Assembly (NCBI RefSeq): GCF_030644365.1
Contig: NZ_CP130058.1
Span: 2,469,705-2,533,704, forward strand
Direction of reading: 5' to 3'
DNA: 64,000 nucleotides
From: Schaalia sp. HMT-172
GTDB taxonomy: Bacteria; Actinomycetota; Actinomycetes; Actinomycetales; Actinomycetaceae
In this document: positions 2,225 through 56,759 of the stretch, piece by piece
How positions within the stretch are numbered: the stretch's first letter is position 1
How the letters are laid out: each line of letters opens with the position of its first letter
The notes under the pieces: generated by a model
What the model saw: the letters and a program-made list of their open reading frames with translations, nothing else
What the model was told of the DNA's origin: nothing
Database searches by the model: none
Position numbers and translations under genes: made by a program

Positions 2225-3750
2225 TAGTTTTCTCCCCCTTCAGTGGACGAGGCCGGGGCGTGGTCCTCGGACAGGAGCCGTGTCAGTTCGGCTTCGGTGA
2301 GGTTGTCGGGGCTCATGGGCTCGCTCAGGTGTCCGGCGCGCATGATGGCGATTGTCGAGCAGTTGGTGAGTACTTCGGCGATGTCGTCGGAGATGATGAT
2401 GACTCCCATGCCTTGGGAGGCGAGTTCGCGCAGGATGGAGTGGATCGTGAATTTGGAGCCGATGTCGACGCCGACGGTGGGGCCGTTGAGGATGAGGACG
2501 GAGGGTTTGGTGGCGAGCCACTTGGCCAACACGACCTTTTGCTGGTTGCCGCCCGAGAGGGTGTTGACGGCGTTGGCGGGGTCGGGTGTGACGACGTCGA
2601 GGCGTTTCACCCACTTTTTTTCTTCGGCGCGGATGGCTTTCTTGTCGATGAATCCCAGGGCTTTGGTGAAGGATTCCATCTCGGAGATCGTGATGTTTTC
2701 GCCGATCGAGCGCGAGAGAAACAGGCCTTCGGTGAGGCGGTCTTCGGGCACGTAGGCGATGCCGGCTTCGATCGCGTCGCGCACGCCGTGCAGGGTCACG
2801 TCCTGGCCTGCGACGCGGATGCGACCGGAGTCGAGGGGCAGCATCCCGAAGAGGGACATGGCCAGCTCGGTGCGTCCGGAACCCAGCAGGCCGGTGATGC
2901 CGAGGATTTCGCCGGGCCGCACGCTCAGGGAGGCGTCGGCGAAAGCGCCGGCAACGGTTGCGCCTTCGACCTGGAGGACCGGGGCCTCGTCGATGTCTCC
3001 TCTCTGGTAGCGTTCCTCCGCGAAGTCGCGCCCCGTCATGTGGCGGGCGAAGCTGGCTCGGTCGAGCTTTTCTTTCGGGCAGGTGATGACCTTGTGGCCG
3101 CTGCGCAGGATCGTGAAGCGCTCCGCGATTTCGAAGACTTCTTCGAGCTTGTGGGACACGAAGAGGATCGCGATGCCGCGCGATTGGAGGTCGGCGACGA
3201 TGTCGAAGAGGGCGCGCACTTCTTTCTTGGTGAGGGCGGTCGTGGGCTCGTCCATGATGATGAGCTTCGCGTCGCCCATGAGGGCGCGGCTGATGGCGAC
3301 GAGCTGCTTGTCGGCGACGGATAGGTTGCCGACAAGTTCGTCGAGGTCCACGTCGAAGCCGATCTTCGCTACGGCCTCGCGCGCGACCTCACGCATGCGG
3401 GAACGGTTCACCAGGCGACGCCCGGCCGCGACTTCGCTGCCCAGCGCGATGTTCTCCATGACGGAGAGGTTGGGGAAGATGGAGAAGTCCTGGTAGATGA
3501 CGCGCACGCCCGCGTCGATGGCAGCGGACGGCGTCAGGCGCGTGAAGTCGCGACCGTCAATCGAGACCGTCCCGTGTTCGGGGGTGTGCACCCCGGAGAT
3601 CACCTTGATGAGGGTGGATTTGCCCGACCCGTTTTCGCCGGCCAGGCAGTGGATTTCTCCGGGCGCGATCTCCAGGTCGATGTCGACCAGGGCTCGCACG
3701 CCTGCGAAGGATTTGCTGACGTGTCGTACCGCCAGCACTGGGGTGTCCAT
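2224..3750 (-). CDS. Sugar ABC transporter ATP-binding protein with two ABC domains (RbsA/LsrA type)
   Basis: A 508-residue fused double ATPase energising the two permeases. The first domain has Walker A GENGSGKST (residues 38-46), a variant signature LSVADKQ (about 143) and an intact Walker B IIMDEPT (about 164). The second has a degenerate Walker A GLLGSGRTE, a good signature LSGGNQQK and a Walker B reading LILNGPT, so the aspartate and catalytic glutamate are replaced. This asymmetry is common in RbsA-like proteins, and hydrolysis is expected mainly at the composite site that uses the first Walker B. The gene follows the binding-protein gene after a hairpin-containing spacer. Confidence 0.92.
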   Translation of the reverse strand: MDTPVLAVRHVSKSFAGVRALVDIDLEIAPGEIHCLAGENGSGKSTLIKVISGVHTPEHGTVSIDGRDFTRLTPSAAIDAGVRVIYQDFSIFPNLSVMENIALGSEVAAGRRLVNRSRMREVAREAVAKIGFDVDLDELVGNLSVADKQLVAISRALMGDAKLIIMDEPTTALTKKEVRALFDIVADLQSRGIAILFVSHKLEEVFEIAERFTILRSGHKVITCPKEKLDRASFARHMTGRDFAEERYQRGDIDEAPVLQVEGATVAGAFADASLSVRPGEILGITGLLGSGRTELAMSLFGMLPLDSGRIRVAGQDVTLHGVRDAIEAGIAYVPEDRLTEGLFLSRSIGENITISEMESFTKALGFIDKKAIRAEEKKWVKRLDVVTPDPANAVNTLSGGNQQKVVLAKWLATKPSVLILNGPTVGVDIGSKFTIHSILRELASQGMGVIIISDDIAEVLTNCSTIAIMRAGHLSEPMSPDNLTEAELTRLLSEDHAPASSTEGGEN

Positions 3751-3854
3751 GTGGTGTCCTTTCCAACGTATCCCGCCGCCCGGGGGACGCCCTCACGCGC
3801 GCGGTCGCGTGACGCGAGGGGGCGCGCGCGTCACTGCGTGCGCGGGGTGGCCCG
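3751..3854. other. Operon spacer between binding protein and ATPase
   Basis: GC-rich non-coding stretch. It contains arms ACGCGCGC and GCGCGCGT (about 3795 and 3824) that can pair. It adjoins the stronger hairpin at 3855-3894. No ORF with a ribosome site was seen. Confidence 0.4.
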
Positions 3855-3894
3855 GCCACGGCCTCGTCATTGGAGTGGGTGACGAGGCCGTGGC
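3855..3894 (-). terminator. 15-bp perfect hairpin after the sugar-binding protein gene
   Basis: Arms GCCACGGCCTCGTCA (3855-3869) and its exact complement (3880-3894) with a 10-nt loop, 28 bp after the binding-protein stop. There is no U-run, so it is more likely a 3' stabiliser or partial terminator that keeps binding-protein mRNA in excess over the ATPase and permeases. Both arms are full copies of the repeated word GACGAGGCCGTGGC. Confidence 0.7.
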
Positions 3895-3922
3895 ACCCGG
3901 GTGGTCGTCGCCTGAGAGCGGG

Positions 3923-4969
3923 TCAGAAGCCGAGGGAGTCGACGTTGTCCTTGGTGATCTTGAGCCAGCCGGTGCCCTCGAGGACCTTGGTGGAGCCGGG
4001 CGAGAAGTGCATGCTTTCGTAGCCTTCGACGCCCAGGTTCACACCGTCTTCGATCTTTTCACCGTTGAGGATCTTCGTGGCCAAGGAGGCCATCGCGTAG
4101 CCGGCGTTCGCGGGATCCCACAGGGTCAGGGTGGACACGGATCCGTCCTTGAGGATTTGCGCGTTGGCGGCGGGCATGCCGGTGCCGGCGGTGAAGACCT
4201 TGCCTTTCAGGCCGAGTTCGTCGATGGCGCGGGCGGTGCCGGGCGCGTCGAAGGAGGAGGTACCGAGGATGCCCTTGACTTCGGGGTACTTCTTGAGGAC
4301 TTCCTTGGCGGTCTGGTAGGCGGTTTCACCGTTGTCTTGGGATTCGACGCGGGGCTCGGCTTCGAGCAGCGTCATGTTGGGGTATTTCTCCTTTTGGTGG
4401 GCGACGGCGCCGTCTGCCCATTCGTTGTGGGAGGCGTTGGTGACGTGGCCGACCATGGTGGTGTAGACGCCTTCTTCACCCATGGCTTCGGCGAGGTTGT
4501 CCATGATGAACGCGCCGTATTCCGTGTTGTTGAAGGCTTCGATGTCGTACATCGTGTTTTGCTGGGAGGCGCCCTCGTGGGTGACGACGACGATGCCTGC
4601 GTCCATGGCTTGCTTGAGGACAGGTTCGATGGCGCCGGGGTCGACGGGGACGACGCAGATGGCGTCGACACCTTGGGCGATGAGGTCTTGGATGACTTGA
4701 GCCTGCATGGTGGCGTCGGTTTCGGCGGGGCCCTTCTGGAAGACGTTCATGCCCGTGTCAGCGGCGTACTTGTTGACGCCGGTTTCCATGCGGACAAACC
4801 AGGGGTTGGTGGCGTCCTTGGGGACGACGGCGATCGTGTAGTTGCCGTCTCCGCCGCCGGTCTTGGTGCCAGATGCGGATTGGGAGGCGTCGTCCATCGT
4901 GCAGGCGCCGAGTGCGAGGGCGCATGCGGACACGGTGACGAGCGTTGTTGCTGCGAGGCGGGACTTCAT
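3923..4969 (-). CDS. Sugar/AI-2-type ABC transporter substrate-binding lipoprotein
   Basis: A 348-residue secreted lipoprotein. The N terminus MKSRLAATT leads into a hydrophobic signal ending LALGAC, so the cysteine is the lipidated residue. The mature part starts with the periplasmic-binding core YTIAVVPKDATNPWF and has the type I sugar-binding features GVDAICVVPVDPGAI and VKGILGTSSFDAPG. It resembles the LsrB/RhaS branch (Peripla_BP_4). The start was set at 4969 because GAGGAGTTCCG precedes that ATG and the signal peptide follows; the frame stays open upstream but without signal-like sequence. It heads the operon with the ATPase, two permeases and the RpiB-like enzyme. Confidence 0.88.
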   Translation of the reverse strand: MKSRLAATTLVTVSACALALGACTMDDASQSASGTKTGGGDGNYTIAVVPKDATNPWFVRMETGVNKYAADTGMNVFQKGPAETDATMQAQVIQDLIAQGVDAICVVPVDPGAIEPVLKQAMDAGIVVVTHEGASQQNTMYDIEAFNNTEYGAFIMDNLAEAMGEEGVYTTMVGHVTNASHNEWADGAVAHQKEKYPNMTLLEAEPRVESQDNGETAYQTAKEVLKKYPEVKGILGTSSFDAPGTARAIDELGLKGKVFTAGTGMPAANAQILKDGSVSTLTLWDPANAGYAMASLATKILNGEKIEDGVNLGVEGYESMHFSPGSTKVLEGTGWLKITKDNVDSLGF

Positions 4970-5454
4970 CGGAACTCCTCTGGGTGTGGTCAACATCGGT
5001 GTTGGGGTTGTGGTTGTGCGTGCGGCGGCTCCGCTGGGGTGCGGCGGCGCGTGGGGTGGCTGTGCTTCCTTGCTGGCCACTCCCGCGGTGTCGCTTGTGC
5101 GGTGCTGCTGCGTGCCGGGCGTTCCCGTCCTTGGGGTCGCGTCGGCGTGCCCCAATCCTAGGACACGCGGGTGGCGGCGTTCACTGTTCGGGTCCGTGTG
5201 GGACGAGGCCGTGGCGGGTTTTTGGGGTGTGGTTGCGGCGGTTTTGGGCTGATTTGTCAGACGTATGGCGTCATAGTCCTCACCAAATTGAGATGAACTG
5301 AATCCACTGAGTGCGGTCCAGCACTCGCAGAGCAAACCCTCTGCACACCCGTTCAGTGATTCGTATCATATGTGCACGTCTGAGCGGCGACCACGCTGAC
5401 GCGGGAGGATGTGCAGGGCGTGGGCGTGCACATCCTCCACCAGCACACTAACGA
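4970..5454. other. Promoter region of the sugar operon plus downstream end of the neighbour gene
   Basis: No gene is supported in these 485 bases. It must hold the leftward promoter of the sugar operon; a minus-strand TATGAT at 5370-5365 could be a -10 box but no good -35 was seen. A small dyad (GAGTGC/GCACTC, 5309-5326) and related elements TGAATCCACTGA and TTCAGTGATTC may be operator parts. One copy of the repeated word GACGAGGCCGTGGC is at 5202-5215. Confidence 0.4.
5404..5438 (-). terminator. 12-bp perfect hairpin downstream of the membrane-protein gene
   Basis: Arms GGAGGATGTGCA (5404-5415) and TGCACATCCTCC (5427-5438) enclose 11 nt, 16 bp after the stop of the gene ending at 5455. No T-run follows, so termination is inferred from position and stem strength. 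Confidence 0.5.
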
Positions 5455-5967: not shown

Positions 5968-5991
5968 CCTGTTCCCTCCTCTGGGCCACAC

Positions 5992-6012
5992 TGTCGACCA
6001 CCGTGGTCGACA
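5992..6012 (-). promoter_or_regulatory. Perfect palindrome upstream of the membrane-protein gene
   Basis: Half-sites TGTCGACCAC and GTGGTCGACA around a single central base, 25-45 bp upstream of the start at 5967. The size and position fit a dimeric repressor operator overlapping the promoter or leader. No regulator gene sits next to it. Confidence 0.5.
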
Positions 6013-19078: not shown

Positions 19079-19166
19079 ATGTCTACTTCATGGCGGGGTT
19101 CCTCTCTTTGTGGCGCGCCCAGCACCCCACTTGTCGTCGATGACCCGGGGACCAGCCACGGCCTCG

Positions 19167-19460
19167 TCAATCCTCGTGCAGCTCTGGCTGGCGCTCGACG
19201 TCGCGCACCCACTCGCGCACCGCGGCGCGGAGGGCTCCCGACCGTGACGTGATGCCCTCACTGGCCGCGCGAGCCATCATGGCGTCGAAAATATCAACGT
19301 CAAGGCTCGTGGTTACGGCCACTCGTAGCGGGGGCACGGGATGACGCGCTCGCTCCTCGCGCAGGAAGGCCACAAGTTCTTCAGCTTCTCCGGATTCAAT
19401 GAGCTAGCGTTGGAGGTCGGCCTTCATCTTCACGTCCGCTCGGTTACTGCGCTTCCTCAT
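19167..19460 (-). pseudogene. Ribbon-helix-helix (CopG-like) gene with an in-frame amber codon
   Basis: The frame starts MRKRSNRADVKMKADLQR, is interrupted by TAG, and continues LIESGEAEELVAFLREER, then VAVTTSLDVDIFDAMMARA and SRSGALRAAVREWV. A shorter product could start in the second part at an ATG-free GTG near 19412, so a 68-82 residue RHH protein is still possible. The RHH part aligns with the neighbouring broken gene without gaps. Likely role, if expressed, is DNA-binding autoregulation. Confidence 0.6.
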
Positions 19461-23912: not shown

Positions 23913-24628
23913 GCGCGCACTCCTAGGGCGTCGAGGATCGGGTTGTCGGGTCGCACGTCGAAGGCGCGGATCCACGGGTCGGCGTCGGCCAGCTCGTCGG
24001 GCCGCCCGGAGGCGACGATCGTGCGCCGCAGCAGGTAAAGGCGGTCGCACCCGGCGCGCGCGCCGATGAGGTCGTGCGTCGTCATCAGGAGGGCTCGCCC
24101 CCCGTCCGCGAGCGCGCGGAACAGGTCCATGAGCATCTCCTGCGTGGGCATGTCGAGGCCGGTGAAGGGCTCGTCGAGGAGCAGCACGGCGGGCCGGATC
24201 GCGAGGGCCCGGGCGACGAGGACGCGCTGGCGCTGCCCGCCGGACAGCTCGCCGATGGGACGCTTCGCGAGGTCGCGCAGGCCCACGAGGCTCAGGGCCT
24301 CCTCGACGGCGCGGAAGTGCGGGGTCCGCGCGCGCCCGAGCAGCCCGCGCCGCACGGTGACGGCCTGCAGGACGGCGTCGCGCACGCTGATCGGGAAGTC
24401 CCACGCGAACTCGTGGCGCTGCGGCACATACCCGATCGCGCCGTCGGTCTCGACGCGCCCGCTGGAGGGGATGAGTCCCAGGATCGAGCGGATCAGCGTG
24501 GTCTTCCCGGCGCCGTTGGGTCCGATGAGGCCGACGAGCTCCCCGGCCCGGGCCTCCAGGTCGACGCCCGTCAGGACGCTGCGCCCACCCAGGGACGCGC
24601 CCAGTCCGGTGACGCGCAGCTGGCTCAC
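23909..24628 (-). CDS. Anchored repeat-type ABC transporter, ATP-binding subunit
   Basis: A 239-residue ATPase with GTG start inside the stop of the upstream gene (GTGA). Walker A GPNGAGKTT (about residue 37), signature LSGGQRQRV (about 128), Walker B VLLLDEPFTGLD (about 148) and the switch His in LLMTTHDL are all intact. It belongs to the metal-type (ZnuC/MntB-like) family, TIGR03771 subgroup by context. It energises the permease encoded immediately downstream. Confidence 0.92.
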   Translation of the reverse strand: MSQLRVTGLGASLGGRSVLTGVDLEARAGELVGLIGPNGAGKTTLIRSILGLIPSSGRVETDGAIGYVPQRHEFAWDFPISVRDAVLQAVTVRRGLLGRARTPHFRAVEEALSLVGLRDLAKRPIGELSGGQRQRVLVARALAIRPAVLLLDEPFTGLDMPTQEMLMDLFRALADGGRALLMTTHDLIGARAGCDRLYLLRRTIVASGRPDELADADPWIRAFDVRPDNPILDALGVRA

Positions 24629-25992
24629 TGCTCCCCTCCCCGATCGACGAGGCCGGGGCCCTCGTCGCCCTCGCCCGCGCCGGGTGCACCGTCAGGCCCC
24701 ACGCTGGGCGCCGCGCCTCGGGCGGGCACGGACCTATCGGACGAGGCCATGGCCGCTTCCCCGCTTCCCTCACCCTTCGCGGTGGGCAGGGGGGCGAGGA
24801 GGGAGTCGGCCTCGGCGATGGCGGCGGCTTGTTCGGCGCGGCTGCGGCGCGAGCGCGCGACGACGAGCGCAAGAATCACCAGGAGGGACAAGCTGGCGAC
24901 GGCGATGATAGCGAGGAAAGCCCAGTCGGGCAGCCCGCCTTCGGAGGAGGGCGACGTTGACTCGGAGGAGCCTGCGGCTCCCGGCCCGGCGGCGCCCGGG
25001 TTCGCGGAAGAGGAGCCAGCGCCTTGGGAGGCGCCCGCGGCCGGGTCCCCAGAACCAGAACCAGAACCGGCAGCCGCGGGCGCGGCCATGGCCAGGGCCT
25101 CGGACGCGGAGGCGGCGTCACCGACGGCGAAGCGCAGGGTCGTGGAGGCGCTCACGGCCTCGCCGGCGGTGGTCGTGCCCAGGAAGGTCACGGTCGCCGT
25201 GTAGGTGCCGGGGGCGGAGAACGCCCAGTTGGCGTGCACGTGCGTGCCCGAGTCGATCCACACGTCGCCAGGCGCCGCGCCGGAGTCGGCGAGCAGGAGG
25301 GGCTTGCCGAAGGTGCCGGACTGGAGGAACAGCCACGCACGGCCGGGGCCGGACACGGGGCCGACGCGCATGGTGAGGCCGCGGTCGATGGTGGCCGTGA
25401 CGGCGGGGTCTTGCGTGTTCCACCCGAGCCACACGACGCTCGGGTTCTGCGTCTGGGGGATGACGTGGACGGGCTTGCCGGCGACGTCGGCCAGGAAGGG
25501 GTAGTCGGCGGAGTCGGGCGCGGTCATGATGGCCGCGTCGCTGACCCGCAGGACGGTCTGGTTGGGGTCGCGCCACACGGCGCCGCTCTCGGCGTCGTGG
25601 CGCAGGCCGGCCCGCCACTGTCCATCGATCAGTCGGGGGCCGAGGTCGACGTGTCCGACGCTGATCTCGCTGGCCTCATTCGACCATTCCTCGTGAGCGG
25701 CGACGCTCTGCGCGAGGTCGGGGTCGGGTGTCGGGTCAGCAAGAGAAGAGGGCGCGCCCACGATGACGAGGAAGGCCGACACAAGCAGAGCGCTCAGAGC
25801 CAGGCCGAGGCGCGCGGAGCGCGACGAGGCGCTGGCAGGCCGCCGGCTAGCCCCGGGGGCGGCGGCAGGGCCTGGCCGGGCTTCGAGACGCGGCGCCGAG
25901 CGCAGCTCGGTCGCCAAGTCTCGCGGGCGGGCCGCCGCCCCCGGGGCGAAGAGCCGGCGGCCGGCAATCGGGCGAGAAGGGAAGGGTTTCAT
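24625..25992 (-). CDS. Choice-of-anchor M domain surface protein
   Basis: A 455-residue membrane-anchored protein. An unusually long N-terminal stretch (about 60 residues, Arg/Pro/Ala-rich) precedes the signal-like helix LGLALSALLVSAFLVIVGA. The extracellular domain contains VSVGHVDLGPRL-like sequence, VWLGWNTQDP and THVHANWAFSAPGTYTATVT, the hallmark of the choice-of-anchor M (TIGR03769) repeat. A Ser/Gly/Ala linker and a C-terminal helix (WAFLAIIAVASLSLLVILAL) anchor it, followed by a cytoplasmic tail of about 70 residues. The N-terminal extension coincides with a palindromic repeat found elsewhere between genes. Start and stop overlap both neighbours by 4 bp. Confidence 0.8.
   Translation of the reverse strand: MKPFPSRPIAGRRLFAPGAAARPRDLATELRSAPRLEARPGPAAAPGASRRPASASSRSARLGLALSALLVSAFLVIVGAPSSLADPTPDPDLAQSVAAHEEWSNEASEISVGHVDLGPRLIDGQWRAGLRHDAESGAVWRDPNQTVLRVSDAAIMTAPDSADYPFLADVAGKPVHVIPQTQNPSVVWLGWNTQDPAVTATIDRGLTMRVGPVSGPGRAWLFLQSGTFGKPLLLADSGAAPGDVWIDSGTHVHANWAFSAPGTYTATVTFLGTTTAGEAVSASTTLRFAVGDAASASEALAMAAPAAAGSGSGSGDPAAGASQGAGSSSANPGAAGPGAAGSSESTSPSSEGGLPDWAFLAIIAVASLSLLVILALVVARSRRSRAEQAAAIAEADSLLAPLPTAKGEGSGEAAMASSDRSVPARGAAPSVGPDGAPGAGEGDEGPGLVDRGGEQ
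25878..25930. repeat. Palindromic repeat inside the choice-of-anchor gene
   Basis: Starts GGGCTTCGAGA and ends TCTCGCGGGCGG, with inner arms CCGAGC/GCTCGG, so it folds as an imperfect hairpin. The same ends and hairpin logic occur in the intergenic repeats at 31805 and 34699. Here it is translated as part of the N-terminal extension (about residues 21-38). Confidence 0.6.
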
Positions 25993-29925: not shown

Positions 29926-30482
29926 CAACAAGATGGTTCCCCGAAAATGTCGCATGCAATTCCTTCCCCCATATTTCAAACTTTGAAACCGCTTCGTTGA
30001 AATTCTGCGACTTTCAGGCTGTCTAAAAATTGTCGGACAACCGAATTGCATACGACTTTTAGGGAGCGCATAAATAGGTCAGATTCCTGAGCGCTCTGCA
30101 CCAGGTTGTCCCACAACGTGCTCACACCCGCCCATATGTACTCCCAGAGACCACGACACCCAACACACCACGAATTGTGAGCGCCGATTCACGATGTGGT
30201 GAAATCTGCGCAGGCGGCCACTTTGCTTTGCAATTGCTTGGTTTTGGTGCGATCTAAATTACTGGCCGAACGGTTGATTGTGCGTTTCGGCAGGGATAGA
30301 CTATAACCATCAAGCGTCTGACGAAGCTGCCAAGCTCATCCGGCGCTTTTCTTGTTTGACACGCAGGGTCGCGCCGACGCCACCCGCGTTGGCATGCTCC
30401 TCGCGCGAGACCCGCCGGGCGATCCCCGGCCTCGCCAAGCAGGAACACACCATTGAATACACGATCCCACGAGGAGCCCGCT

Positions 30483-32048: not shown

Positions 32049-32144
32049 TCTGCCCAACCACCGGCCTCGTTACCCCGTGAGCCGCGGAAAGTGGCACACT
32101 TGACCTATACGTTGAACGTGACCCCATGCAAAGGATGGCATGCC

Positions 32145-33473
32145 TTGACTCAGCCTTCGACCAACGGCGTGACCCCGGCCTCGTCCGGGCGCACGCCCGC
32201 GCAAGGAAACCGCCTCGACCCCTGGTTCGACGCCTACGCGGAACGCGCCCACAATCTGCGCGAATCGGAAATCCGCGCGCTCTTCTCCGTGGTGTCGCGC
32301 CCCGAGGTTGTCTCCCTCGCCGGCGGCATGCCGAACCTCAAGGACCTGCCCCTCGACAAGCTCGCCGCGTCCGCGGAGAAGCTGGTGCGCAACCACGGCG
32401 CGCAGGCCATGCAGTACGGCAGCGGCCAAGGCTGGGAGGCACTGCGCGAGCGGATCACCGAGGTCATGAGCTACGACGGCATCGTCGGCGCCGACCCCGA
32501 CGACGTCGTCGTCACGACGGGAAGCCAGCAGGCCCTCGACCTCGTCACCGAGCTCTTCGTGAATCCGGGCGACGTCGTCCTCGCCGAGGCCCCCTCCTAC
32601 GTGGGCGCCCTGGGCGTGTTCCGCGCGCGCCAGGCGGACGTCGTGCACGTCCCCATGGACGAGCACGGCATCATTCCCGAGGCCCTGGTGGAGACGATCC
32701 GCGACGTGCGCGCCTCGGGCCGCACCATCAAGTTCATCTACATCATCCCGAACTACCACAACCCAGCGGGCGTGACGCTCTCCGCGGAGCGCCGCCCCAT
32801 CATCGCGGAGATCTGCCTGCGCGAGCACGTCCTGATCGTCGAGGACAACCCCTACGGCCTGCTCGGCTTCCATAACGACCCCCTGCCGGCCATCGCCTCG
32901 TACAGCCCTGAGGGCGTCGTCTACCTGGGTTCCTTCTCGAAGATGTTCGCGCCCGGCTTCCGTATCGGCTGGGCGTACGCGCCGCACGCGATCCGCGCGA
33001 AGCTGGTGCTGGCTCTCGAGTCCGCGATCCTGTGCCCGTCGATGGTGGGCCAAATGGCGATCGCCGACTACCTGGGCAGCTACGACTGGTACGGGCAGGT
33101 GAAGTCCTTCCGTTCGATGTACGCGGAGCGTTGCCGCTCGATGCTGACGGCGCTCGAGGAGTACATGCCGTCGTGCTCGTGGACGGTGCCGGACGGCGGA
33201 TTCTACACGTGGGTGACGCTCCCCGAGGGCCTCAACGCGAAGTCGATGCTGCCGCGCGCGGTGCGCGCCCAGGTCGCCTACGTGTCGGGGACGGCGTTCT
33301 TCTACGATGGCCAGGGGTCGAATCACATGCGCCTGTCGTTCTGCTACCCGTCCCCCGAGGACATCCGCGAGGGCGTGCGTCGCCTGTCGACGGTCGTCAA
33401 CGCTGAGAAGGAAATGGTCGACATGTTCGGCACCGCCTCGATCGACGAGGCCGGGGCCGAGTCCGCCCGTTAA
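32145..33473 (+). CDS. PLP-dependent class I/II aminotransferase (MocR/LysN-like)
   Basis: About 442 residues. No ATG fits the N terminus; TTG at 32145 with AAAGGAT eight bases upstream is preferred, a TTG at 32101 is possible. Features: SLAGGMPNLKDLPLD, VVVTTGSQQALDLVTELF, PNYHNPAGVTLS and the PLP-lysine motif YLGSFSKMFAPGFRIGW. Related enzymes are 2-aminoadipate or aromatic aminotransferases. The substrate is not evident. It is 22 bp upstream of the ddl-like gene and probably co-transcribed with it, as in other actinobacteria near parAB. The extreme C terminus carries one copy of the GACGAGGCCGGGGC word. Confidence 0.85.
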   Translation: MTQPSTNGVTPASSGRTPAQGNRLDPWFDAYAERAHNLRESEIRALFSVVSRPEVVSLAGGMPNLKDLPLDKLAASAEKLVRNHGAQAMQYGSGQGWEALRERITEVMSYDGIVGADPDDVVVTTGSQQALDLVTELFVNPGDVVLAEAPSYVGALGVFRARQADVVHVPMDEHGIIPEALVETIRDVRASGRTIKFIYIIPNYHNPAGVTLSAERRPIIAEICLREHVLIVEDNPYGLLGFHNDPLPAIASYSPEGVVYLGSFSKMFAPGFRIGWAYAPHAIRAKLVLALESAILCPSMVGQMAIADYLGSYDWYGQVKSFRSMYAERCRSMLTALEEYMPSCSWTVPDGGFYTWVTLPEGLNAKSMLPRAVRAQVAYVSGTAFFYDGQGSNHMRLSFCYPSPEDIREGVRRLSTVVNAEKEMVDMFGTASIDEAGAESAR

Positions 33474-35692: not shown

Positions 35693-36970
35693 TCAGTGGA
35701 GAATAAGGCCTGCAATTCGCTGAAGATCCTCGGATCCTGCGAATTCGATGACGATCCTACCCTTCTTGCGGCCTTCCGTGATAGAGACGCGCGTGTCGTA
35801 GGCATCCGACAGTGCGGATACTACACTCTCCCCCAGGGGCGACAGTGGTGGCTGCTGGCGAGTGCGCGGACGCGGGGTGGCCTTCGCCTTTCCGAGACGG
35901 ACGATCTCCTCGGTGGTGCGCACCGAGAGTCCTTCCGCGACGATGCGTTCAGCAAGCCGTTCCATTTCCTCGGCCGTCGCGAGAGACAGGAGGGCGCGGG
36001 CGTGGCCCGCGGTGATGACCTGTGCGGCCACCTTCTTCTGGACGGAGGGGGGAAGCTTCAGCAGGCGCAGGGTGTTGGCGATCTGCGGTCGCGAGCGGGC
36101 GATTCTCTTGGCGAGCTCTTCCTGAGTCGCACCGAAATCCGCCATGAGCTGCTGATATGCGCTCGCCTCCTCCAGCGGGTTGAGCTGGGCCCGGTGGAGG
36201 TTTTCCAGGAGAGCATCTCTGAGCAGGTCTCCGTCGTCGGTCTCCCGGATGATCGCCGGAATCGTGGTTTCACCCGCGAGCTCGGAGGCGCGCAGGCGGC
36301 GCTCGCCCATGATCAGCTCGAAGCGCGCGTCGGGCTTCTCCTGGAGGAACTCCTGGAGCTTCTCGGAACGCCCCGTCGCGGGGATGCTGCGAACGACGAC
36401 GGGCTGGAGAACGCCGACCTCCTTGATGGATGCCGACAGTTCCTTCAGGTCATCCTCATCGAAGACCTCACGCGGCTGCTTCGAGTTGGGGACGATCTGA
36501 TCGATAGCAATCTCTGCAAAGGAGGCGCCGGGCACCGGCACGAGCTCGTGGTCGCTGGATGTTTCACGTGAAACATTCGACGGCGAGTCCGCCACGGCAG
36601 TCGCGGCGTGATCGCGCGAACCCGATTCGCCCTGGTCGGAAGCTGAGCCATTGATCCCGGACCCAAGGGGCGAGGAGCCCTGCGCCGCGAGCCGCGTTCC
36701 GCCCGTGTTCACAGCAGGCATTGTGGGGCGCTTCTTCTTCGACGAGGCCGTGGCTCGCTTGGGCTGGAGGAGATCCTTTGCAGAGCCTCCTCGGCCGCGC
36801 GCGGCAGGGCCTTCGGGGAAAAAGACGTCGAGCGGCCGCGAGGGACCCGCAGACATTGTCTGAGGCGTCTGTTCACCTGCCTGGGGGATAAGAGCTCCAA
36901 GCCCTCGGCCGAGGCCGGAATGCTTACGAGCACCCTTACGACCCTCAGACTTCGGTGTTACATCCGCCAT
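35693..36970 (-). CDS. parB: Chromosome partitioning protein ParB
   Basis: A 425-residue CTP-dependent DNA clamp. The N terminus (KHSGLGRGLGALIPQ) is the ParA-interaction motif, followed by a long low-complexity linker (residues 30-140). The ParB/Srx domain has IVPNSKQPREVFDEDDLKEL and the CTP/GERR box LIMGERRLRASELAG; the HTH domain that binds parS follows (ATQEELAKRIARSRPQIANT). A C-terminal dimerisation domain ends the protein. A parS site is embedded in the linker coding sequence as NVSRET. Lies 174 bp downstream of parA on the same strand. Confidence 0.97.
   Translation of the reverse strand: MADVTPKSEGRKGARKHSGLGRGLGALIPQAGEQTPQTMSAGPSRPLDVFFPEGPAARGRGGSAKDLLQPKRATASSKKKRPTMPAVNTGGTRLAAQGSSPLGSGINGSASDQGESGSRDHAATAVADSPSNVSRETSSDHELVPVPGASFAEIAIDQIVPNSKQPREVFDEDDLKELSASIKEVGVLQPVVVRSIPATGRSEKLQEFLQEKPDARFELIMGERRLRASELAGETTIPAIIRETDDGDLLRDALLENLHRAQLNPLEEASAYQQLMADFGATQEELAKRIARSRPQIANTLRLLKLPPSVQKKVAAQVITAGHARALLSLATAEEMERLAERIVAEGLSVRTTEEIVRLGKAKATPRPRTRQQPPLSPLGESVVSALSDAYDTRVSITEGRKKGRIVIEFAGSEDLQRIAGLILH
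36560..36575. promoter_or_regulatory. parS site inside parB
   Basis: Exact TGTTTCACGTGAAACA within the linker-coding part of parB, read as codons for NVSRET on the minus strand. Confidence 0.96.
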
Positions 36971-42321: not shown

Positions 42322-43767
42322 GTGGAGTCGGATTCCCTCACACGTGCGTGGGCTGCCGCCCTCAATGCAGTCCCCACCGACGAGCTGGGACCCGTCGCCA
42401 CGTCGATGCTGCGCTCGGCACGCCCGCTCGGCGACATCGAGGGCACGATCCTGCTGGCCGTCCCCAACGGCTTCACCAAGCAGTGGATCGAAGACAAGGC
42501 CCAGTCGAAGCTGACGACCGCCCTGTCCGTGAACCTCGGACGCACCGTGCGCATCGCCATCACGGTTGATCCCTCCCTGGAGCTCGTCGCCGCTGACGAT
42601 CAGGAAGAGGAGGAGCCACCCGCTCCCGCCCCACCCACACAGCCCGCCCCGGCCTCGTCCCAGGAGAAGAAGGAGAACCACTCCCCCGCCCTCGTGACCT
42701 CCCCGACCGACGCCGGACCGACCCACCTGAACCCGAAGTTCACCTTCGATACCTTCGTCATCGGCCCGTCGAACCGTTTCGCGCACGCCGCGGCGCTGGC
42801 GGCCTCGGAAACCCCGGGTACCGCCTTCAACCCGCTGTTCATCTACGGCGACTCCGGGCTGGGAAAGACGCACCTGCTGCAGGCCATCGGCCACAACGCC
42901 CTGTCGATGATGCCCCACCTGAAGGTCCGCTACGTCAACTCCGAGGAATTCACGAACGAGTTCATCAACGCGATCCGCCTGAACAAGACCGACAACTCCC
43001 AGGTCGAGGCCTTCCACCGGCGCTACCGCGAGCTCGATATTCTCCTCATCGACGACATTCAGTTCATCGGCGACAAGGAACAGACGGTCGAAGGTTTCTT
43101 CCACACCTTCAACGCACTGCACAGCGCCAACAAGCAGATCGTCCTGACCTCCGACCTGCCCCCCGCCCAGCTCAAGGGCTTCGAGGACCGCATGCGCTCG
43201 CGCTTCTCCTCCGGCCTGCTCGTCGACGTCCAGCCGCCGGACCTGGAGACCCGCATCGCGATCCTGCACAAGAAGGCGGACGCCGAGGGCCTGGAGGTCA
43301 CCCCTGAGGTCTTCGAATACGTGGCCTCGCGCATCTCCTCCAACATCCGCGAGCTGGAGGGCGCGCTCGTGCGCATCGGCGCGTGGGCGTCCCTCTATAA
43401 GGAGCGCATCGACCTGAATCTGGCGCAGATGATGCTTAAGGACTTCGTGTCCAACCCGGACGACAACGAGATCACCGTCAGCCTCATCATGAGCCAGTGC
43501 GCCGTCTACTTCGGTGTGACGATCGAACAGATGGGATCCTCCGAGCGCAGCCACAACGTCGTCGAAGCCCGCCAGATCGCCATGTATCTGTGCCGCGAAC
43601 TCACCGACCTGTCGCTGCCCAAGATCGGACAGGCCTTCGGGCGCGACCACACGACGGTCATGCACGCCAACAAGAAGATCTCCAAGCTCATGAAGGAAAA
43701 ACGAGAAACCTTCAACCACGTGTCCGAGCTTACAAACCGCATCAAGCAGAAGGCCAGAGAGTCGTAA
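42322..43767 (+). CDS. dnaA: Chromosomal replication initiator DnaA
   Basis: A 481-residue AAA+ initiator with GTG start. Domain I (1-85) binds helicase-loading partners; the Pro/Glu-rich domain II (95-140) is variable and carries one copy of the GACGAGGCCGGGGC word (reverse). Domain III has Walker [11 protein letters not shown] (about 177) and Walker [11 protein letters not shown] (about 240). Domain IV has the DnaA-box binding signature [14 protein letters not shown] (about 438-452). Complete and typical in length. Confidence 0.98.
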
Positions 43768-45315: not shown

Positions 45316-46512
45316 GTGCGCGTCTCCCACCTGGCCCTCGACGACTTCCGCTCCTGGAAGCACGGGGTCGTCGAGCTGCCCGCGGGACCCACGGTCCTGG
45401 TGGGCGCGAACGGCCAGGGCAAGACGAACCTCGTCGAGGCGCTCGCCTACCTGTCTACGTTTTCATCGCACAGGGTCGGCGCGGAGGGCGCGCTCGTGCG
45501 CATCCCCCTCGACGAGGACGAGGCCGCCCCGGGCGGTGCCGTCATCCGCGCGCGGGTCGTGACCTCGGGCCGCGAGCAGGTCATCGAGCTGGAGATCGTG
45601 CGCGGCAAAGCAAACCGGGCGCGCATCAACCGCGCGCAGGTGAGGCCCCGCGAGATCCTGGGCATCGTGCGCACCGTCGTCTTCGCGCCCGAGGATCTCT
45701 CGCTCGTGCGCGGTGACCCGTCGGTGCGCCGCTCCTTCCTCGACGACTTGGCTACGCAGCTCTCCCCCATCCACGCCTCCGTGCGCTCGGATTTCGACCG
45801 CGTCGCCCGACAGCGCGCCGCGCTCATGAAGGCCGCCCAGGCCTCGCTCCGGCGCGGGCAGGCCCCCGACCTGTCGACGCTCGAGGTATGGGACCAGCAA
45901 TTCGCCGCCCTGTCGGCGCGCATCACGGCGACGCGCGCCTCCATCGCCTCGCGCCTGGAAGAGCCGGCCTCGCGCTCCTACGACGACGTCGCGGACTCCC
46001 CGCGCCACCTGCGCCTCGCCTTCGACGCCTCCGTCGACCGCGTCATCGGCACCGACCCGGGCAACCCGGCCAGCGCCGACCTCACCGACGTCGACGCACA
46101 GACGCAGCGCATGCTCGCCGCCTTGGGGAGCGTGCGCGAGAAGGAAACCGAGCGCGGCGTCAACCTCGTCGGCGCGCACCGCGACGACCTGACCCTCAGC
46201 CTCGGCGCAATGCCCGTCAAGGGCTACGCCTCCCATGGCGAATCCTGGTCGGTCGCCCTGGCCCTGCGCCTCGGCGCCTTCGAGCTGCTCAGCGACGACG
46301 GCGACACCCCGATCCTCATCCTCGACGACGTCTTCGCCGAACTCGACTCCTCGCGCCGGGCGGGCCTGGCCGCCCTGGCCTCGAAAGCCGAGCAGATCAT
46401 CGTCACCTGCGCCGTCGCCGGCGACCTGCCCGCGTCCCTCGACCACCACCCCCTGCACGTGCGACTCGACCCGCGCCGTGGCACCGTCATCGACGGACCC
46501 GACCATGAGTGA
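45316..46512 (+). CDS. recF: DNA replication and repair protein RecF
   Basis: 398-residue SMC-like ATPase, GTG start. Walker A VGANGQGKTNLVEAL (about residue 33), signature VNLVGAHRDDL (about 288) and Walker B ILILDDVFAELDS (about 334). Helps RecA loading at gaps with RecO/R. The end overlaps the DUF721 gene by 8 bp. Confidence 0.96.
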   Translation: MRVSHLALDDFRSWKHGVVELPAGPTVLVGANGQGKTNLVEALAYLSTFSSHRVGAEGALVRIPLDEDEAAPGGAVIRARVVTSGREQVIELEIVRGKANRARINRAQVRPREILGIVRTVVFAPEDLSLVRGDPSVRRSFLDDLATQLSPIHASVRSDFDRVARQRAALMKAAQASLRRGQAPDLSTLEVWDQQFAALSARITATRASIASRLEEPASRSYDDVADSPRHLRLAFDASVDRVIGTDPGNPASADLTDVDAQTQRMLAALGSVREKETERGVNLVGAHRDDLTLSLGAMPVKGYASHGESWSVALALRLGAFELLSDDGDTPILILDDVFAELDSSRRAGLAALASKAEQIIVTCAVAGDLPASLDHHPLHVRLDPRRGTVIDGPDHE

Positions 46513-47317
46513 GCGTCACGACCGCGCCGACGCGGATCCGACCGGCCCCGACGCCGAGGGCGCCCACTCCCCCACCCCAGGCGAGGAAGCCGACGCCGAC
46601 GAGTTCGTCGTCCGAGCGCTCGAACGCGCCCAGCGCGTCGCCCGCAACCACGGCTACATTCGATCCACCCTGCCCTCGTGGGGCCTCGACGAGACGCGCC
46701 CCAGACGCAGCCTCGACGGCTCCAGCGAATACGCGGCCATCGAAATCGATGGGCTCGGCCGCCTCGCCGGCGGCGACGACGACGCCCAGGCGCGCGCAGC
46801 CGCCCGAGCCGCCGCCTACGGGCGCGTGAACGGAGTGAGCGCCCCGGCCTCGTCCACGGAGGAAGACCCAGAGGGCGACCTCGCCGCGCTGCGCCAAGCC
46901 CTCGAAGGTACGGGCGCCTCGTGGAGCCGCTCCCCCGGCATGGCCGCGATGCGGCCGCGCTACCGCAGGGCCAACTCGCTGGGCGCGATCCTCGAGCGCA
47001 CCATCAGCGCCCGCGCCTGGGACACGCCCACCAAAATGGGGTCCGTCATGGCGAAATGGCGGGACATCGTGGGCCCCAGCAACGCCGACCACACGCGCAT
47101 CGAGACCTTCGAGGGACACAAGCTCGTCGTGCGCGCCGACTCAACCGCCTGGGCCAAACAGCTCCAGCTCCTGCTGCCCACCATCGAGCGTCGCATCGCC
47201 GAGGAGGTCGGCTCGGGCGTCGTCGAACAGGTCATCATCTTGGGGCCCGTCGCCCCGTCGTGGAAGAAAGGCCCCTACGTGGTGCGGGGGCGTGGCCCGC
47301 GCGCCGACTATGGATAA
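46505..47317 (+). CDS. DUF721/DciA-family protein
   Basis: 270 residues; ATG at 46505 within the recF end. The N-terminal 150 residues are acidic and low-complexity; the conserved C-terminal region has GAILERTISARAWDTPTKMG, VMAKWRDIVGPSNADHTRIE and LVVRADSTAWAKQLQLLLP, the KH-like DUF721 domain. Other DciA proteins load the replicative helicase; gene order recF-DUF721-gyrB is the usual actinobacterial one. The linker includes one reverse copy of GACGAGGCCGGGGC. Confidence 0.88.
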   Translation: MSERHDRADADPTGPDAEGAHSPTPGEEADADEFVVRALERAQRVARNHGYIRSTLPSWGLDETRPRRSLDGSSEYAAIEIDGLGRLAGGDDDAQARAAARAAAYGRVNGVSAPASSTEEDPEGDLAALRQALEGTGASWSRSPGMAAMRPRYRRANSLGAILERTISARAWDTPTKMGSVMAKWRDIVGPSNADHTRIETFEGHKLVVRADSTAWAKQLQLLLPTIERRIAEEVGSGVVEQVIILGPVAPSWKKGPYVVRGRGPRADYG

Positions 47318-52591: not shown

Positions 52592-52665
52592 CAACACCGC
52601 GACCAGCCCAGCCCCGGCCTCGAACCTGGCGGGCCTGATCGAGCAGAAACAACGTAAGGAAAAAC

Positions 52666-55272
52666 GTGAGCGACGAGCAGACTACTGACGCGCGGCACAT
52701 CTCGGACACCGAGCGCATCCGCCAGGTCGACCTGCAAAAAGAGATGCAGCGCTCCTACCTCGACTACGCGATGAGCGTCATCGTCGGACGCGCCCTACCC
52801 GACGTGCGCGACGGCCTCAAGCCCGTCCACCGCCGCGTCCTGTACGCCATGTACGACGGCGGATACCGCCCCACCTCCTCGTTCTCCAAGTCCTCCCGCG
52901 TCGTCGGCGAGGTCATGGGTAACTACCACCCCCACGGCGATGCCGCCATCTACGACGCCCTCGCGCGCCTCGTGCAGCCCTGGTCGCTGCGCTACCCCCT
53001 CGTCGCCGGCCAGGGTAACTTCGGCACCCCCGGCAACCTGGGACCCGCCGCACCCCGTTACACCGAGTGCAAGATGGCACCCCTGGCCATGGAAATGGTC
53101 CGCGACATCGACGAAGAATGCGTCGACTTCCAGGACAACTACGACGGCCGCAACCAGGAACCCACCATCCTGCCCGCGCGCTTCCCGAACCTGCTGGCCA
53201 ACGGCTCCGAAGGCATCGCCGTCGGCATGGCGACCCGCATCCCGCCGCACAACCTGCGCGAACTGGCGCGCGGCGTCGAATGGGCCCTCGAACACCCCGA
53301 AGCCTCGCGCGAGGAACTCCTCGAAGCACTCCTCACGCTCATCCCCGGACCCGACTTCCCCACCGGCGCCACCATCCTGGGCCGCAAGGGCATCGAAGAC
53401 GCCTACCGCACCGGACGCGGCTCCATCACGCAGCGCGCCGTCGTGGGTGTTGAGGAAATCCAGGGCCGCCAGTGCCTCGTCGTCACCGAACTGCCCTACC
53501 AGGTCAACCCCGACAACCTGGCCGATAAGATCGCCCAGCTCGTGCGCGACGGCGCGATCGGCGGCATCGCCGACATCCGCGACGAAACCTCCGGCCGAAC
53601 GGGCCAGCGCCTCGTCATCGTCCTCAAGCGCGACGCCGTCGCCAAAGTCGTCCTCAACAACCTCTACAAGCGCACCAGCCTGCAGGAAAACTTCTCCGCC
53701 AACATGCTCGCGCTCGTCGACGGCGTGCCCCGCACCCTGTCCATCGACGGCTTCATCCGCCACTGGATCACCCACCAGATGGACGTCATCGTGCGCCGCA
53801 CGCGCTTCCGCCTGCGCAAGGCCCTCGAACGCCTGCACATCCTCGAAGGCTACCTGAAGGCCCTCGACGCCCTCGACGAGGTCATCGCCCTCATCCGCCG
53901 CTCCCCCACCGTCGACGAGGCACGCGCAGGCCTGATCGACCTGCTCGACGTGGACGCCATCCAGGCCGACGCCATCCTGGCCCTCCAGCTGCGCCGCCTG
54001 GCCGCCCTCGAGCGCCAGAAGATCATGGACGAGTACGCCGAGCTCAAGGCCCGCGTCGACGACCTCAACGACATCCTGGCCAAGCCCGAGCGCCAGCGCG
54101 CCATCATCTCCGCCGAACTGTCCGACATCGTCGACAAGTTCGGCGACGAGCGCCGCACCCGCATCCTCCCCTTCGACGGGGAAATGTCGATGGAAGACCT
54201 CATCCCCGAAGAGGACGTCGTCGTCACCATCACCCGCGACGGCTTCGCCAAGCGCACCCGCACCGACAACTACCGCTCGCAAAAGCGCGGCGGGAAGGGC
54301 GTGCGCGGCACCCAGCTGCGCGGCGACGACGTCGTCGAGCACTTCTTCGTCACCACCACGCACAACTGGCTGCTCTTCTTCACCAACCTCGGCCGCGTCT
54401 ACCGCGCCAAGGCCTACGAAATCCCCGAAGGCGGCCGCGACGCCAAGGGCCAGCACGTCGCCAACCTGCTGGCCTTCCAGCCCGACGAGCACATCGCGCA
54501 GGTCCTCGCGATCCGCACCTACGAGGACGCGGACTTCCTGGTCCTGGCCACCAAGCGCGGCCTGGTGAAGAAGACCCCGCTGAGCCTGTACAACTCCCCC
54601 CGCTCCGGCGGCATCATCGCCATCAACCTGCGCGAGGACGAAGACGGCAAGCCCGACGAACTCGTCTCCGCGCAGACCATCATGGCCGACGAGGACCTCA
54701 TCCTCGTCTCGCGCGACGGCCAGGCCGTGCGCTTCACCGCCACCGACGATCAGCTGCGCTCCATGGGCCGTTCCACGTCCGGCGTGCGCGGCATGAAGTT
54801 CCGCGGCGACGACGAACTCCTCAGCATGGAGGTCCCGCGCGAAAACACCGACCTGCTGATCGTCACCGACTCCGGCTACGCCAAGCGCACCCCCGTCGAG
54901 GAATATCCGACGAAGTCGCGCGGCACCCTCGGCGTGCGCGTCGGCAAACTCGTCGACGAACGCGGCGGCCTGGTCGGCGCCCTCGTCGTGCGACCCGATG
55001 AAGACGTCATGGTCATCACCGAGTCCGGCAAGCTCGTCCAGGTCAACGCCTCCGACGTGCGACCCACCGCCCGCAACACCATGGGCGTCATCTTCGCCCG
55101 ACCGGACGAGGGCGACCGCATCATCGCGATCACCCGCAACCCCGACTCGGGAGATGACGAGGCCGACGACACCGAGAACACCGAGGCTGCGGATGCCGCG
55201 GAGGGAACCGATGCCCCCGCCGACGAGGCCACGGCCTCTGAGGGCGGCGACACCGAAGTTACCGAAAACTGA
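52666..55272 (+). CDS. gyrA: DNA gyrase subunit A
   Basis: 868 residues, GTG start after GTAAGGAAAAAC. Breakage-reunion domain with the active Tyr in [14 protein letters not shown]; quinolone region [20 protein letters not shown] has Ala where E. coli has Ser83 (Asp87 equivalent kept). The C-terminal beta-pinwheel includes the GyrA-box [10 protein letters not shown]. The tail after residue 825 is acidic and low-complexity. A 17-bp terminator stem follows. Confidence 0.98.
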
Positions 55273-55276
55273 CGTG

Positions 55277-55314
55277 TGATCACGGGACGAGGCGGGGGCC
55301 TCGTCCCGTGATCA
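55277..55314 (+). terminator. 17-bp perfect gyrA terminator stem
   Basis: Arms TGATCACGGGACGAGGC (55277-55293) and the exact complement (55298-55314) with loop GGGG. The stem again contains GACGAGGC/GGCCTCGTC. No T-run follows. Confidence 0.75.
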
Positions 55315-55399
55315 AGCTTCCAAAGCGGCGCGGAACCAGCGCCGGTGCCCGGCGATGCGGTAGCCTGGCAGGTAGGAAGTGCGACCTGGAAGGAAACAC

Positions 55400-55792
55400 A
55401 TGAGCGACCACGTCTCGAGCGCCCGCAGCGACGCTCCCCGCCGAGTTGACCTGGCGATCGCGCGTATCGACGCGTGGACCGTCATGAAGGTGTCTTTCCT
55501 CCTGTCCGTCGCCCTGGGCATCGCAATGGTCATCGCCACGATCGTCCTGTGGCTCATGGTTGACGCGATGCACGTGTTCAGCCAGCTCGAGGAATTCCTG
55601 CAGACCGTGGGCGCCGGCCGTTTCGTGGACCTGCTGGACTACGCGCGCCTGCCTCGCGTCATCTCCTACGCGACCATCGTCGCCGTCATCAACGTCATCC
55701 TGCTCACCGCGCTGTCGACACTGGGCGCCATGCTCTACAACGTCGTCGCGTCCCTGGTGGGCGGCATTAAGGTGTCTCTCATGGACGAGTGA
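55400..55792 (+). CDS. DUF3566 membrane protein
   Basis: 130 residues, ATG after GGAAGGAAACAC. Two helices (MKVSFLLSVALGIAMVIATI and VIAVINVILLTALSTLGAML-like) flank an extracellular loop. VDLAIARIDAWTVMKVSFLL is the DUF3566 signature. Its position downstream of gyrA next to tRNA-Ile is conserved in actinobacteria. No activity is known. Confidence 0.92.
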   Translation: MSDHVSSARSDAPRRVDLAIARIDAWTVMKVSFLLSVALGIAMVIATIVLWLMVDAMHVFSQLEEFLQTVGAGRFVDLLDYARLPRVISYATIVAVINVILLTALSTLGAMLYNVVASLVGGIKVSLMDE

Positions 55793-55804
55793 GGGCACTC
55801 GCGC

Positions 55805-55832
55805 AAGGGGTCGGCTCACGCCGGCCCCTTTT
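55805..55832 (+). terminator. Intrinsic terminator after DUF3566
   Basis: AAGGGGTCGGC / GCCGGCCCCTT (one G-T pair), loop TCAC, then TTTT; 13 bp after the stop. Confidence 0.85.
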
Positions 55833-55845
55833 GCTATGCCTGTGT

Positions 55846-55895
55846 GCCTGCCTGCGTGCGTCTATGACTGCCTGCGTGCGTGCTTGCGTGCGTGT
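55846..55895. repeat. Short GCCT/GCGT tetranucleotide-like repeat
   Basis: TGCCTGCCTGCGTGCG, then CTGCCTGCGTGCGTGCTTGC and GTGCGTG. Units of four vary between CCTG, CGTG and CTTG. Lies just past the end of the hydrolase gene on the other strand. Confidence 0.7.
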
Positions 55896-55898
55896 CGT

Positions 55899-56759
55899 CT
55901 ATCCGCGTCGGCAAACCCTCAGCAGGACGCCGACGAGGCCACCGAGCGCAGCCCCTAAACGCGACGGTGGCCGCAGATCGCGCCGCAGCGACGAGCCATC
56001 GATCAGCCATGAGTACGGGTTGTGGCTGAGAGGCCCCGGCCAGGACGATGCGACAGCCCGCGCCGGAGCGGGCAGGGGAAGCAGTGGGCTCACCCACGAG
56101 TCGGCCGTCACGTAGATACGCATTCGCCCGTCAATGCCGTGAAAGAAACCGTCGTCAACGACCGACGCGGGAAAACCCAACGGGTCGAACGCATAGACGC
56201 GCTCGACGGTGGGGGAGGAGGCAGCCGCGTAGAGCGCCAGGTTGCCACCCTTCGAGTGCCCAATCACGGTGAGGGGTCCGCCTCCTCGGCCGGCAGCGTA
56301 GTCCAGGTAGCGCGCCGCCCACCGCTGCGCGATCGTCGGGAATTCCAGCCCGAAGCGGGCGTCCTCCGCCCATCCGACCGCGGTTGTGTCCGTCCCGCGG
56401 AAGACCACGAAACGTGCCCCGGCCTCGTCGACGAAGGTGAGCGCGCCGAACTGCGCGAGGGGGCGAGTGCCGATCTTTGTGACCGCGTCGCGCACCCGCA
56501 CGCCACGAAAACGCGGGCTCGCGCCGACTGCCTCCAGGAGCGCGCGGTCCGAATGCGTCACGCTCGAGTGACGGAAGAGGGCGGGTATCGACGAGGCCTG
56601 GGCGACGTCGCGGAGCAGGCAACCGTGGGTGGAGCGGGGGCCGGGCAGCGCGTGACAGTCGACGTAGGTCAGGCATGTGAGCGCGAGCGCGTCGGCGGGG
56701 GAGAGGTCGGAGCGCAGCGGAGTCGTCGCGCTCCTGACGTAGTCGATGATTGCGGTCAC
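55899..56759 (-). CDS. Mbeg1-like (DUF2974) alpha/beta hydrolase
   Basis: 286 residues, GTG start. The nucleophile elbow is VIGHSKGGNLALYAA (Ser at about residue 169); DFGALTFVDE-like sequence and FVVFRGTDTTAVGWAEDA (oxyanion region) precede it. The acid may be the Asp in YAFDPLGFP and the His in PLSHNPYSW. Lipase-like activity is expected; substrate unknown. Converges with DUF3566; the tail meets a tetranucleotide repeat. Confidence 0.85.
   Translation of the reverse strand: MTAIIDYVRSATTPLRSDLSPADALALTCLTYVDCHALPGPRSTHGCLLRDVAQASSIPALFRHSSVTHSDRALLEAVGASPRFRGVRVRDAVTKIGTRPLAQFGALTFVDEAGARFVVFRGTDTTAVGWAEDARFGLEFPTIAQRWAARYLDYAAGRGGGPLTVIGHSKGGNLALYAAASSPTVERVYAFDPLGFPASVVDDGFFHGIDGRMRIYVTADSWVSPLLPLPAPARAVASSWPGPLSHNPYSWLIDGSSLRRDLRPPSRLGAALGGLVGVLLRVCRRG

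Follow-up and report, generated by a model that had tools for sequence, protein, structure and literature searches.

A repeated 14-base word in Schaalia sp. HMT-172 as a probable DNA uptake sequence with dialects in related species

We analyzed a stretch of 64,000 nucleotides (the window) that forms the end of the single-contig genome of Schaalia sp. HMT-172 (2,533,704 bases, 2.53 Mb) and in which a 14-base word, GACGAGGCCGKGGC, recurs on both strands. The initial annotation had taken this repeat for an uptake or Chi-like signal. We consider it probable, with a likelihood of about 75%, that this word serves as a DNA uptake sequence that exists in dialects and would have arisen independently in the Actinomycetaceae. 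On the points that can be tested on sequence, its anatomy matches that of uptake sequences, most fully in this genome, and the rival explanations each fail on at least one point. Near-symmetry of the two strands, preference for intergenic gaps, inverted pairs, an excess over codon shuffles, dialects and the presence of competence genes all point to uptake, whereas the 56:44 orientation of the copies relative to the replication origin weakens the Chi-like part of the earlier proposal.

The 14-mer pattern, which tolerates G or T at one position (GG and GT forms), has 11 copies in the window; the genome holds 350 (182 forward and 168 reverse). As a composition control, the pattern was read backwards. 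This control shares the base composition of the word and has no copy on either strand of the whole genome; base composition therefore cannot explain the count. Further controls used a 484 kb sample of the genome, made of the window, the com stretch and 20 stretches of 20 kb placed at even spacing. For coding, synonymous codons were shuffled within each gene in 40 rounds, and for gaps 20 Markov simulations were run; gene borders, in these and all other counts of genes and gaps, came from a simple open reading frame caller and not from a curated annotation. Seventy copies were seen in the sample and approximately 2.6 were expected. Within genes, there were 15 sense copies for 1.4 expected and 26 antisense copies for 1.2 expected, that is, an excess of about 11-fold and 22-fold, and the shuffle maximum was 4 in each case. 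Between genes, 29 copies were seen and none in the simulations. As would be expected of an uptake sequence, the word was thus far above chance on both strands and genome-wide, the codon and Markov controls bearing on the 484 kb. The view in the initial annotation that protein sequence is not the cause of the repeat held on both gene strands as well as between genes.

The shorter 9-mer had been reported at least 34 times in the window, and we counted 36 (21 forward, 15 reverse). The chance level of one or two derived earlier from base composition turned out to be too lenient for the 9-mer. Its 225 occurrences in the 484 kb compare with about 70 expected in genes and 2.4 between genes (sense, 84 vs 43.6; antisense, 92 vs 25.9; between genes, 49 vs 2.35), so that ordinary coding accounts for roughly a third of them. 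One-mismatch near-misses of the 14-mer were also in excess, both in genes (69 vs 22.8) and between genes (36 vs 0.3). To this sample we added two chosen tad stretches, giving 524 kb; stretches L136 and L138 were excluded since they overlap with L057 and L063 (L-numbers designate sampled loci, G-numbers the genomes compared and C1 coordinates on the HMT-172 genome). Sites with at most two mismatches exceeded the control by about 238 in the 524 kb, or about 1,150 genome-wide by arithmetic extrapolation. Positions flanking the 14 bases were near background frequency, indicating that the repeated unit is the 14-base word itself and no long mobile unit.

Next to this abundance stands a characteristic placement. 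Among the 76 exact copies in the 524 kb, 45 lay wholly within genes, 29 were wholly intergenic, in agreement with the earlier report of copies between genes, and 2 ran across a gene end. As non-coding bases make up 12.6% of this sample, the intergenic share amounts to a roughly threefold preference (p = 1.5e-8). The 45 in-gene copies were antisense in 27 cases and sense in 18. The reading in several frames described previously was confirmed in part: 9 of them were in other phases, and 36 in phase 0 (17 sense, 19 antisense). A concentration in C-terminal tails was not borne out, as the last tenth of the gene held 8 of the 45 copies and the first tenth 6. In the 484 kb, the 31 exact sites assigned to gaps were distributed over convergent (12), tandem (15) and divergent (3) gaps, plus one at a stretch edge, these gap classes covering 12.9, 32.6 and 12.4 kb, respectively.

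Intergenic copies often face each other. We found 21 intergenic inverted pairs in the 484 kb, allowing at most two mismatches per arm; the distance past a stop codon was at most 75 bases in all of them and at most 45 in 19, and arm order was word-first in 12 and the other way in 9. For the 6-base core ACGAGG, intergenic inverted pairs numbered 24 in this genome for about 1.2 simulated. The window pair at 3855-3894, the one pair tested for folding, gave a hairpin of -34.4 kcal/mol (z -4.6). The intergenic excess and the pairs past stop codons known from uptake sequences were therefore present in the HMT-172 genome, and were weak or absent in the other dialect genomes sampled. We also noticed in L011 (814-17150) five related gaps, each with a paired 14-mer, spaced by about 3.2-6.5 kb, the last three with an identical flank, which suggests that this array arose by tandem duplication.

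Comparison with related Schaalia genomes, an avenue pointed out in the initial annotation, was carried out on 98 genomes (HMT-172, 34 of the same genus and 63 of other genera). The 14-mer was present in 59-309 copies in 11 of the 34 same-genus relatives, in 0-28 copies in the other 23, and in 0-10 copies outside the genus. Some low-G+C members of the genus (G016, G018, G021, G024, G026) held 15-28 copies with none of the reversed control; in the sister genomes G006, G007, G008 and G013, whose G+C is comparable or higher, there were 3-17. We searched for words, with none preset, in sampled stretches of 15 relatives and HMT-172 (16 genomes). Altered words came out in four genus members, G003, G005, G013 and, more weakly, G015, and all of them retain GACGAGG. 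Three words sharing this core, GACGAGGGCGGRSC, GACGAGGGYGRCC and GGGACGAGGACGA, were then counted in 58 whole genomes per word, HMT-172 included. GGGACGAGGACGA was found 148 times in G005, at most 16 times elsewhere and once in HMT-172. GACGAGGGYGRCC reached 251 copies in G013, 186 in G017 and 113 in G003, with 10 in HMT-172. GACGAGGGCGGRSC reached 363 in G014, 168 in G012, 114 in G013, 111 in G015, 92 in G017 and 70 in G007, with 3 in HMT-172 and at most 6 outside the genus. GACGAGGGCGGRSC and GACGAGGGYGRCC resemble each other and may represent a single dialect. G016 and G030 carried just one of the four words, that of HMT-172, in 18 and 3 copies.

The words of G003 and G005 stood above the controls in genes (codon shuffles) as well as in gaps (simulation), as did GACGAGGGCGG in G015, and the excess of ACGAGGGCGGAC in G013 and of CGAGGGCGGGGC in G015 was confined to gaps. 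No clear word was detected in the sampled stretches of G006, G008, G016, G020, G026, G036, G044 and G048; in G008, the core ACGAGG was in excess between genes (28 vs 10.7). A tree of HolA and LepA from 20 genomes, G010 (198 copies of the HMT-172 word) standing outside the set, groups HMT-172 with a Schaalia odontolytica genome and recovers a clade with support 1.00 (G000, G011, G019, G022, G023, G025, G028, G031, G034), which comprises our genome and 8 of the 10 same-word relatives present in the tree. Dialects around a conserved core thus largely follow the tree, as they would for an uptake sequence, G012 and G014 being the exception. The broad spread of the GCGGRSC form suggests that it is the older one.

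Individual sites tend to persist. Three sites from gaps of the com region were aligned to nine relatives, which are mutually close and so represent few independent events. In these 27 cases, the site was exact in 13, had one mismatch in 6, two mismatches in 1 and a gap in 6, and was unaligned in 1; five of the 6 gapped cases retain 13 of the 14 bases. Ordinary intergenic 14-mers were identical in 13.5% of cases, in a slightly stricter test, since one position of the word may be G or T. Of 28 cases with in-gene sites, drawn from the com region and the tad regions, 6 were exact, and 5, 3, 1 and 2 had one, two, three and four mismatches, respectively; 1 had a gap and 10 were unaligned, and ordinary in-gene 14-mers were identical in 17.4%.

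The com and pilus genes that the initial annotation had recommended looking for are in place. comEA and comEC lie end to end in L031 (8094-10345), ComEC scoring above the Pfam and one NCBIfam cut-off; the former gene was called comEA because of a helix-hairpin-helix match and its position before comEC. dprA was located at C1:1167613, a prepilin peptidase at C1:1389165, and two tad loci at approximately C1:2,350,600-2,355,900 (L133) and C1:1,820,400-1,824,700 (L134), both with TadA-type ATPases and TadE-like proteins. The TadA-type ATPase of L133 is above its cut-off; the pilus/secretion ATPase family PF00437 had four matches in this genome, of which these were the two looked at. Competence genes are hence present, as judged from the genes alone. 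Excerpts of PMC4322843 describe in another actinobacterium, Micrococcus luteus, a similar arrangement of comEA/comEC and two distant tad/Flp loci, both needed for transformation; the term 'uptake sequence' is never used in the main text of that paper.

If the word is an uptake sequence, it would earmark DNA from the cell's own kind for natural transformation. Double-stranded DNA carrying GACGAGG and a species-specific tail would be preferred by a component of the competence (tad/Flp) pilus or of the ComEA receptor step, candidate receptors being the TadE-like minor pilins of both tad loci and ComEA. Tagged DNA would then enter through ComEC and be protected by DprA, and recombination would follow in cells that would have to be transformable. 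Tagged fragments being taken up more often, copies born by mutation might spread by recombination and accumulate, mostly where harm is small: in gaps that follow a stop codon, where a pair of facing copies would form a hairpin, and in tolerant gene stretches. A change in the receptor would shift the tail and generate dialects. A broader proposal, which we hold to be about as likely as not, is that single-membrane Actinobacteria possess their own self-DNA recognition, in which a tad-pilus system reads GACGAGG and a tail, that the tail changed two or three times within the genus, raising barriers to gene exchange, and that the word ACGACGMCGCAGC of G050 may speak for more than one origin in Actinomycetaceae. 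In G050, a member of another genus (L106-L110), ACGACGMCGCAGC occurred 101 times (64 forward, 37 reverse) for 10 copies of its reversed form, and at most 12 times in each of the other 97 genomes; it is unrelated to the Schaalia word.

Several observations weigh against an uptake sequence. The 350 exact copies fall short of the 'thousands' of DNA uptake sequences (DUS) and uptake signal sequences (USS) that excerpts of PMC3630211 give for the classic families. No report of Schaalia competence was found in the literature searched, which was mainly open-access. ComEA of L031 and TadA of L134 score too low for the curated NCBIfam cut-offs. Of the genomes searched, 93 of 98 have a ComEC and 58 of 58 a PF00437 ATPase, HMT-172 being counted in both, with or without a word, so gene presence supports the possibility of uptake and not its specificity; as a means of telling genomes with the word from those without, it fails. 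Dialect words were chosen from samples of the very genomes later counted whole. GACGAGGGYGRCC also occurred 53 times in G075 and 41 times in G072, both of other families, and therefore has a background. GACGAGGGCGGG in G007 exceeded codon shuffles in genes and had no copy between genes in the sample, and the excess of the word sampled in G030 was likewise mostly or wholly in genes. G012 and G014 are enriched in the HMT-172 word (CCGKGGC), yet lie outside the main clade and carry more of GCGGRSC. As to placement, divergent gaps account for 21% of gap bases and for 3 of the 30 sites placed, which is no strong deficit. Five of the 12 word-first pairs stem from the L011 array. Inverted pairs were clear in HMT-172 only, with 5 vs 1.4 in G005, 3 vs 0.2 in G003 and about chance levels in the remaining genomes sampled. 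Last, there is a weak orientation bias. The window contains oriC, flanked by rpmH (~41.87 kb) and dnaA (from ~42.3 kb), and nine of the eleven window copies do point toward this origin, as previously noted; genome-wide, just 196 of 350 do (56%, p = 0.028) and 154 point away. In this count, the terminus was assumed to lie opposite oriC, the first 100 places per strand covered the first replichore (88 forward and 99 reverse copies before 1,244,898, plus 3 reverse copies right of oriC), and the rest followed from the totals. If genes mostly follow replication, this small bias may come from the antisense preference within genes.

The same bias is what a Chi-like signal would invoke, namely a word that a recombination nuclease reads one way and at which its cutting switches so as to promote recombination. 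Such a word would be frequent, dispersed and oriented, and 196 copies of 350 do lean toward oriC. Chi and KOPS (FtsK-orienting polar sequences), also frequent chromosomal words, are unidirectional and show a strong strand bias, whereas the Schaalia word is nearly symmetric at 56:44, a bias for which the 27 antisense and 18 sense copies in genes may suffice; inverted pairs past stop codons are unexpected too, and to our knowledge dialects that switch between sister species are no feature of Chi. We regard this explanation as improbable. A chromosome-organising or segregation site, similar to KOPS, parS or the site of a nucleoid protein, appears a little less probable again. It would agree with the genome-wide spread and with positions conserved in relatives; KOPS would be strongly skewed toward the terminus, whereas here 154 of 350 copies point away from oriC, and parS sites are far fewer than 350 per chromosome. 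Paired inverted copies and a quick change of dialect would not be anticipated either.

The facing pairs raise the possibility of a transcription terminator hairpin or of a mobile repeat of the repetitive extragenic palindrome (REP) type, since they sit past stop codons and the one pair tested folds well. Both arm orders occur, however, flanks are not conserved and 45 of the 76 copies are located entirely inside genes, whereas REP repeats with their associated (RAYT) transposases depend on a Y1 transposase and are confined to gaps between genes. No match to PF01797, the REP-type Y1 transposase, was obtained in this genome at E <= 0.001. With no conserved flanks and no Y1 transposase match, the mobile repeat was rejected, and we hold this class of explanation to be very unlikely. 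Least credible of all is an artefact of codon use, whereby frequent D-E-A and A-S strings of GC-rich genes would produce the word. It would fit the 36 of 45 in-gene copies in phase 0 and the third of 9-mers that codon shuffles predict; it is contradicted by the 11-fold and 22-fold excess of the 14-mer over shuffles, by 29 copies vs 0 between genes, and by the paucity of the word (3-17 copies) in G006, G007, G008 and G013, whose G+C is similar or higher. Codon-preserving shuffles thus led us to reject it for the 14-mer.

With an uptake sequence as the favored reading, one close likeness is to the DUS of Neisseriaceae, which excerpts of PMC3630211 portray as short, hugely over-represented words with dialects around a fixed core that follow the species tree, and with dyad-symmetric copies. 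DUS differ by their CTG core, their ComP receptor and their phylum; the Schaalia word has GACGAGG as core, tad loci in its genome and fewer exact copies, so descent from DUS is not indicated by the core. The Pasteurellaceae USS, AAGTGCGGT, with core GCGG, is likewise an enriched short word with species types according to excerpts of PMC12616744, and its letters are unrelated. GCGG occurs in one Schaalia dialect and is absent from the HMT-172 word, and hence is not the shared core; descent from USS is not suggested either.

Excerpts of the same 2025 paper (PMC12616744) name Neisseriaceae and Pasteurellaceae, both proteobacterial, as the only families with known uptake sequences. No actinobacterial uptake sequence was found in the literature searched, most subscription papers and preprints lying outside its scope, and a search for the string GACGAGGCCG gave unrelated titles among the matches listed. 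If confirmed, the Schaalia word would be a third and independent case, in another phylum, whose cell envelope and pilus both differ, and would open the question of which features of the mechanism hold generally. It would suggest that oral actinobacteria swap DNA mainly with their own kind, and tagging donor DNA could become a tool for their genetics. Natural dialect pairs would permit a hunt for the receptor by co-variation.

The eleven window copies were all recovered at the positions first reported. Six are on the forward strand. The copy GACGAGGCCGGGGC at 2246..2259 is antisense near the 3' end of the minus-strand gene 2224-3750, which we take, from its start only, to resemble an ABC transporter ATPase. 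The GT form at 3881..3894, 28 bases beyond where the next minus-strand gene ends, is the right arm of the inverted pair whose left arm is the reverse-strand, intergenic GT form at 3855..3868. Another GT form, at 5202..5215, is intergenic. The GG form at 24646..24659 is antisense close to the 3' end of the minus-strand gene 24625-25992, and that at 33444..33457 is sense close to the 3' end of the plus-strand gene 32091-33473. The GT form at 36741..36754 is antisense in the minus-strand gene 35693-36970, the start of whose product is presumably ParB-like, by reading alone. On the reverse strand, besides the left arm, a GT form at 19155..19168 is intergenic, and GG forms lie at 42646..42659, antisense in dnaA (42322-43767, plus), at 46841..46854, antisense in the plus-strand gene 46505-47317, and at 56416..56429, sense in the minus-strand gene 55899-56759.

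Some additional records and repeats were noticed. Two records named Xylanimonas cellulosilytica 352_XCEL (L156) and Sanguibacter keddieii 250_SKED (L157) group with Schaalia odontolytica, and their names therefore look wrong; their identity to the HMT-172 genome is 71% for ComEC, and 96.6 and 98.0% for LepA. Clustered repeats around AACAGAGCGGACTTC, with a 23-base period, occur in G013 (Actinomyces provencensis; L050, L087, L089). In HMT-172, AATTACGTGCGA and AATTGCATGCGA repeats, mostly intergenic and often 93 bases apart, were seen in L010, L012, L016, L020, L133 and at window position 29950, with one copy of AATTGCATGCGA in the window. Clustered GGATAGGTTA repeats, some of them 19 bases apart, were found in five stretches (L009, L013, L016, L021, L134). 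Finally, L027 (37-5162, C1 ~2250037-2255162) contains a CRISPR-like array with 85 copies of GTTTTCCCCGCGTGAGCGGGGATGAGCC, 61 bases apart at its start.

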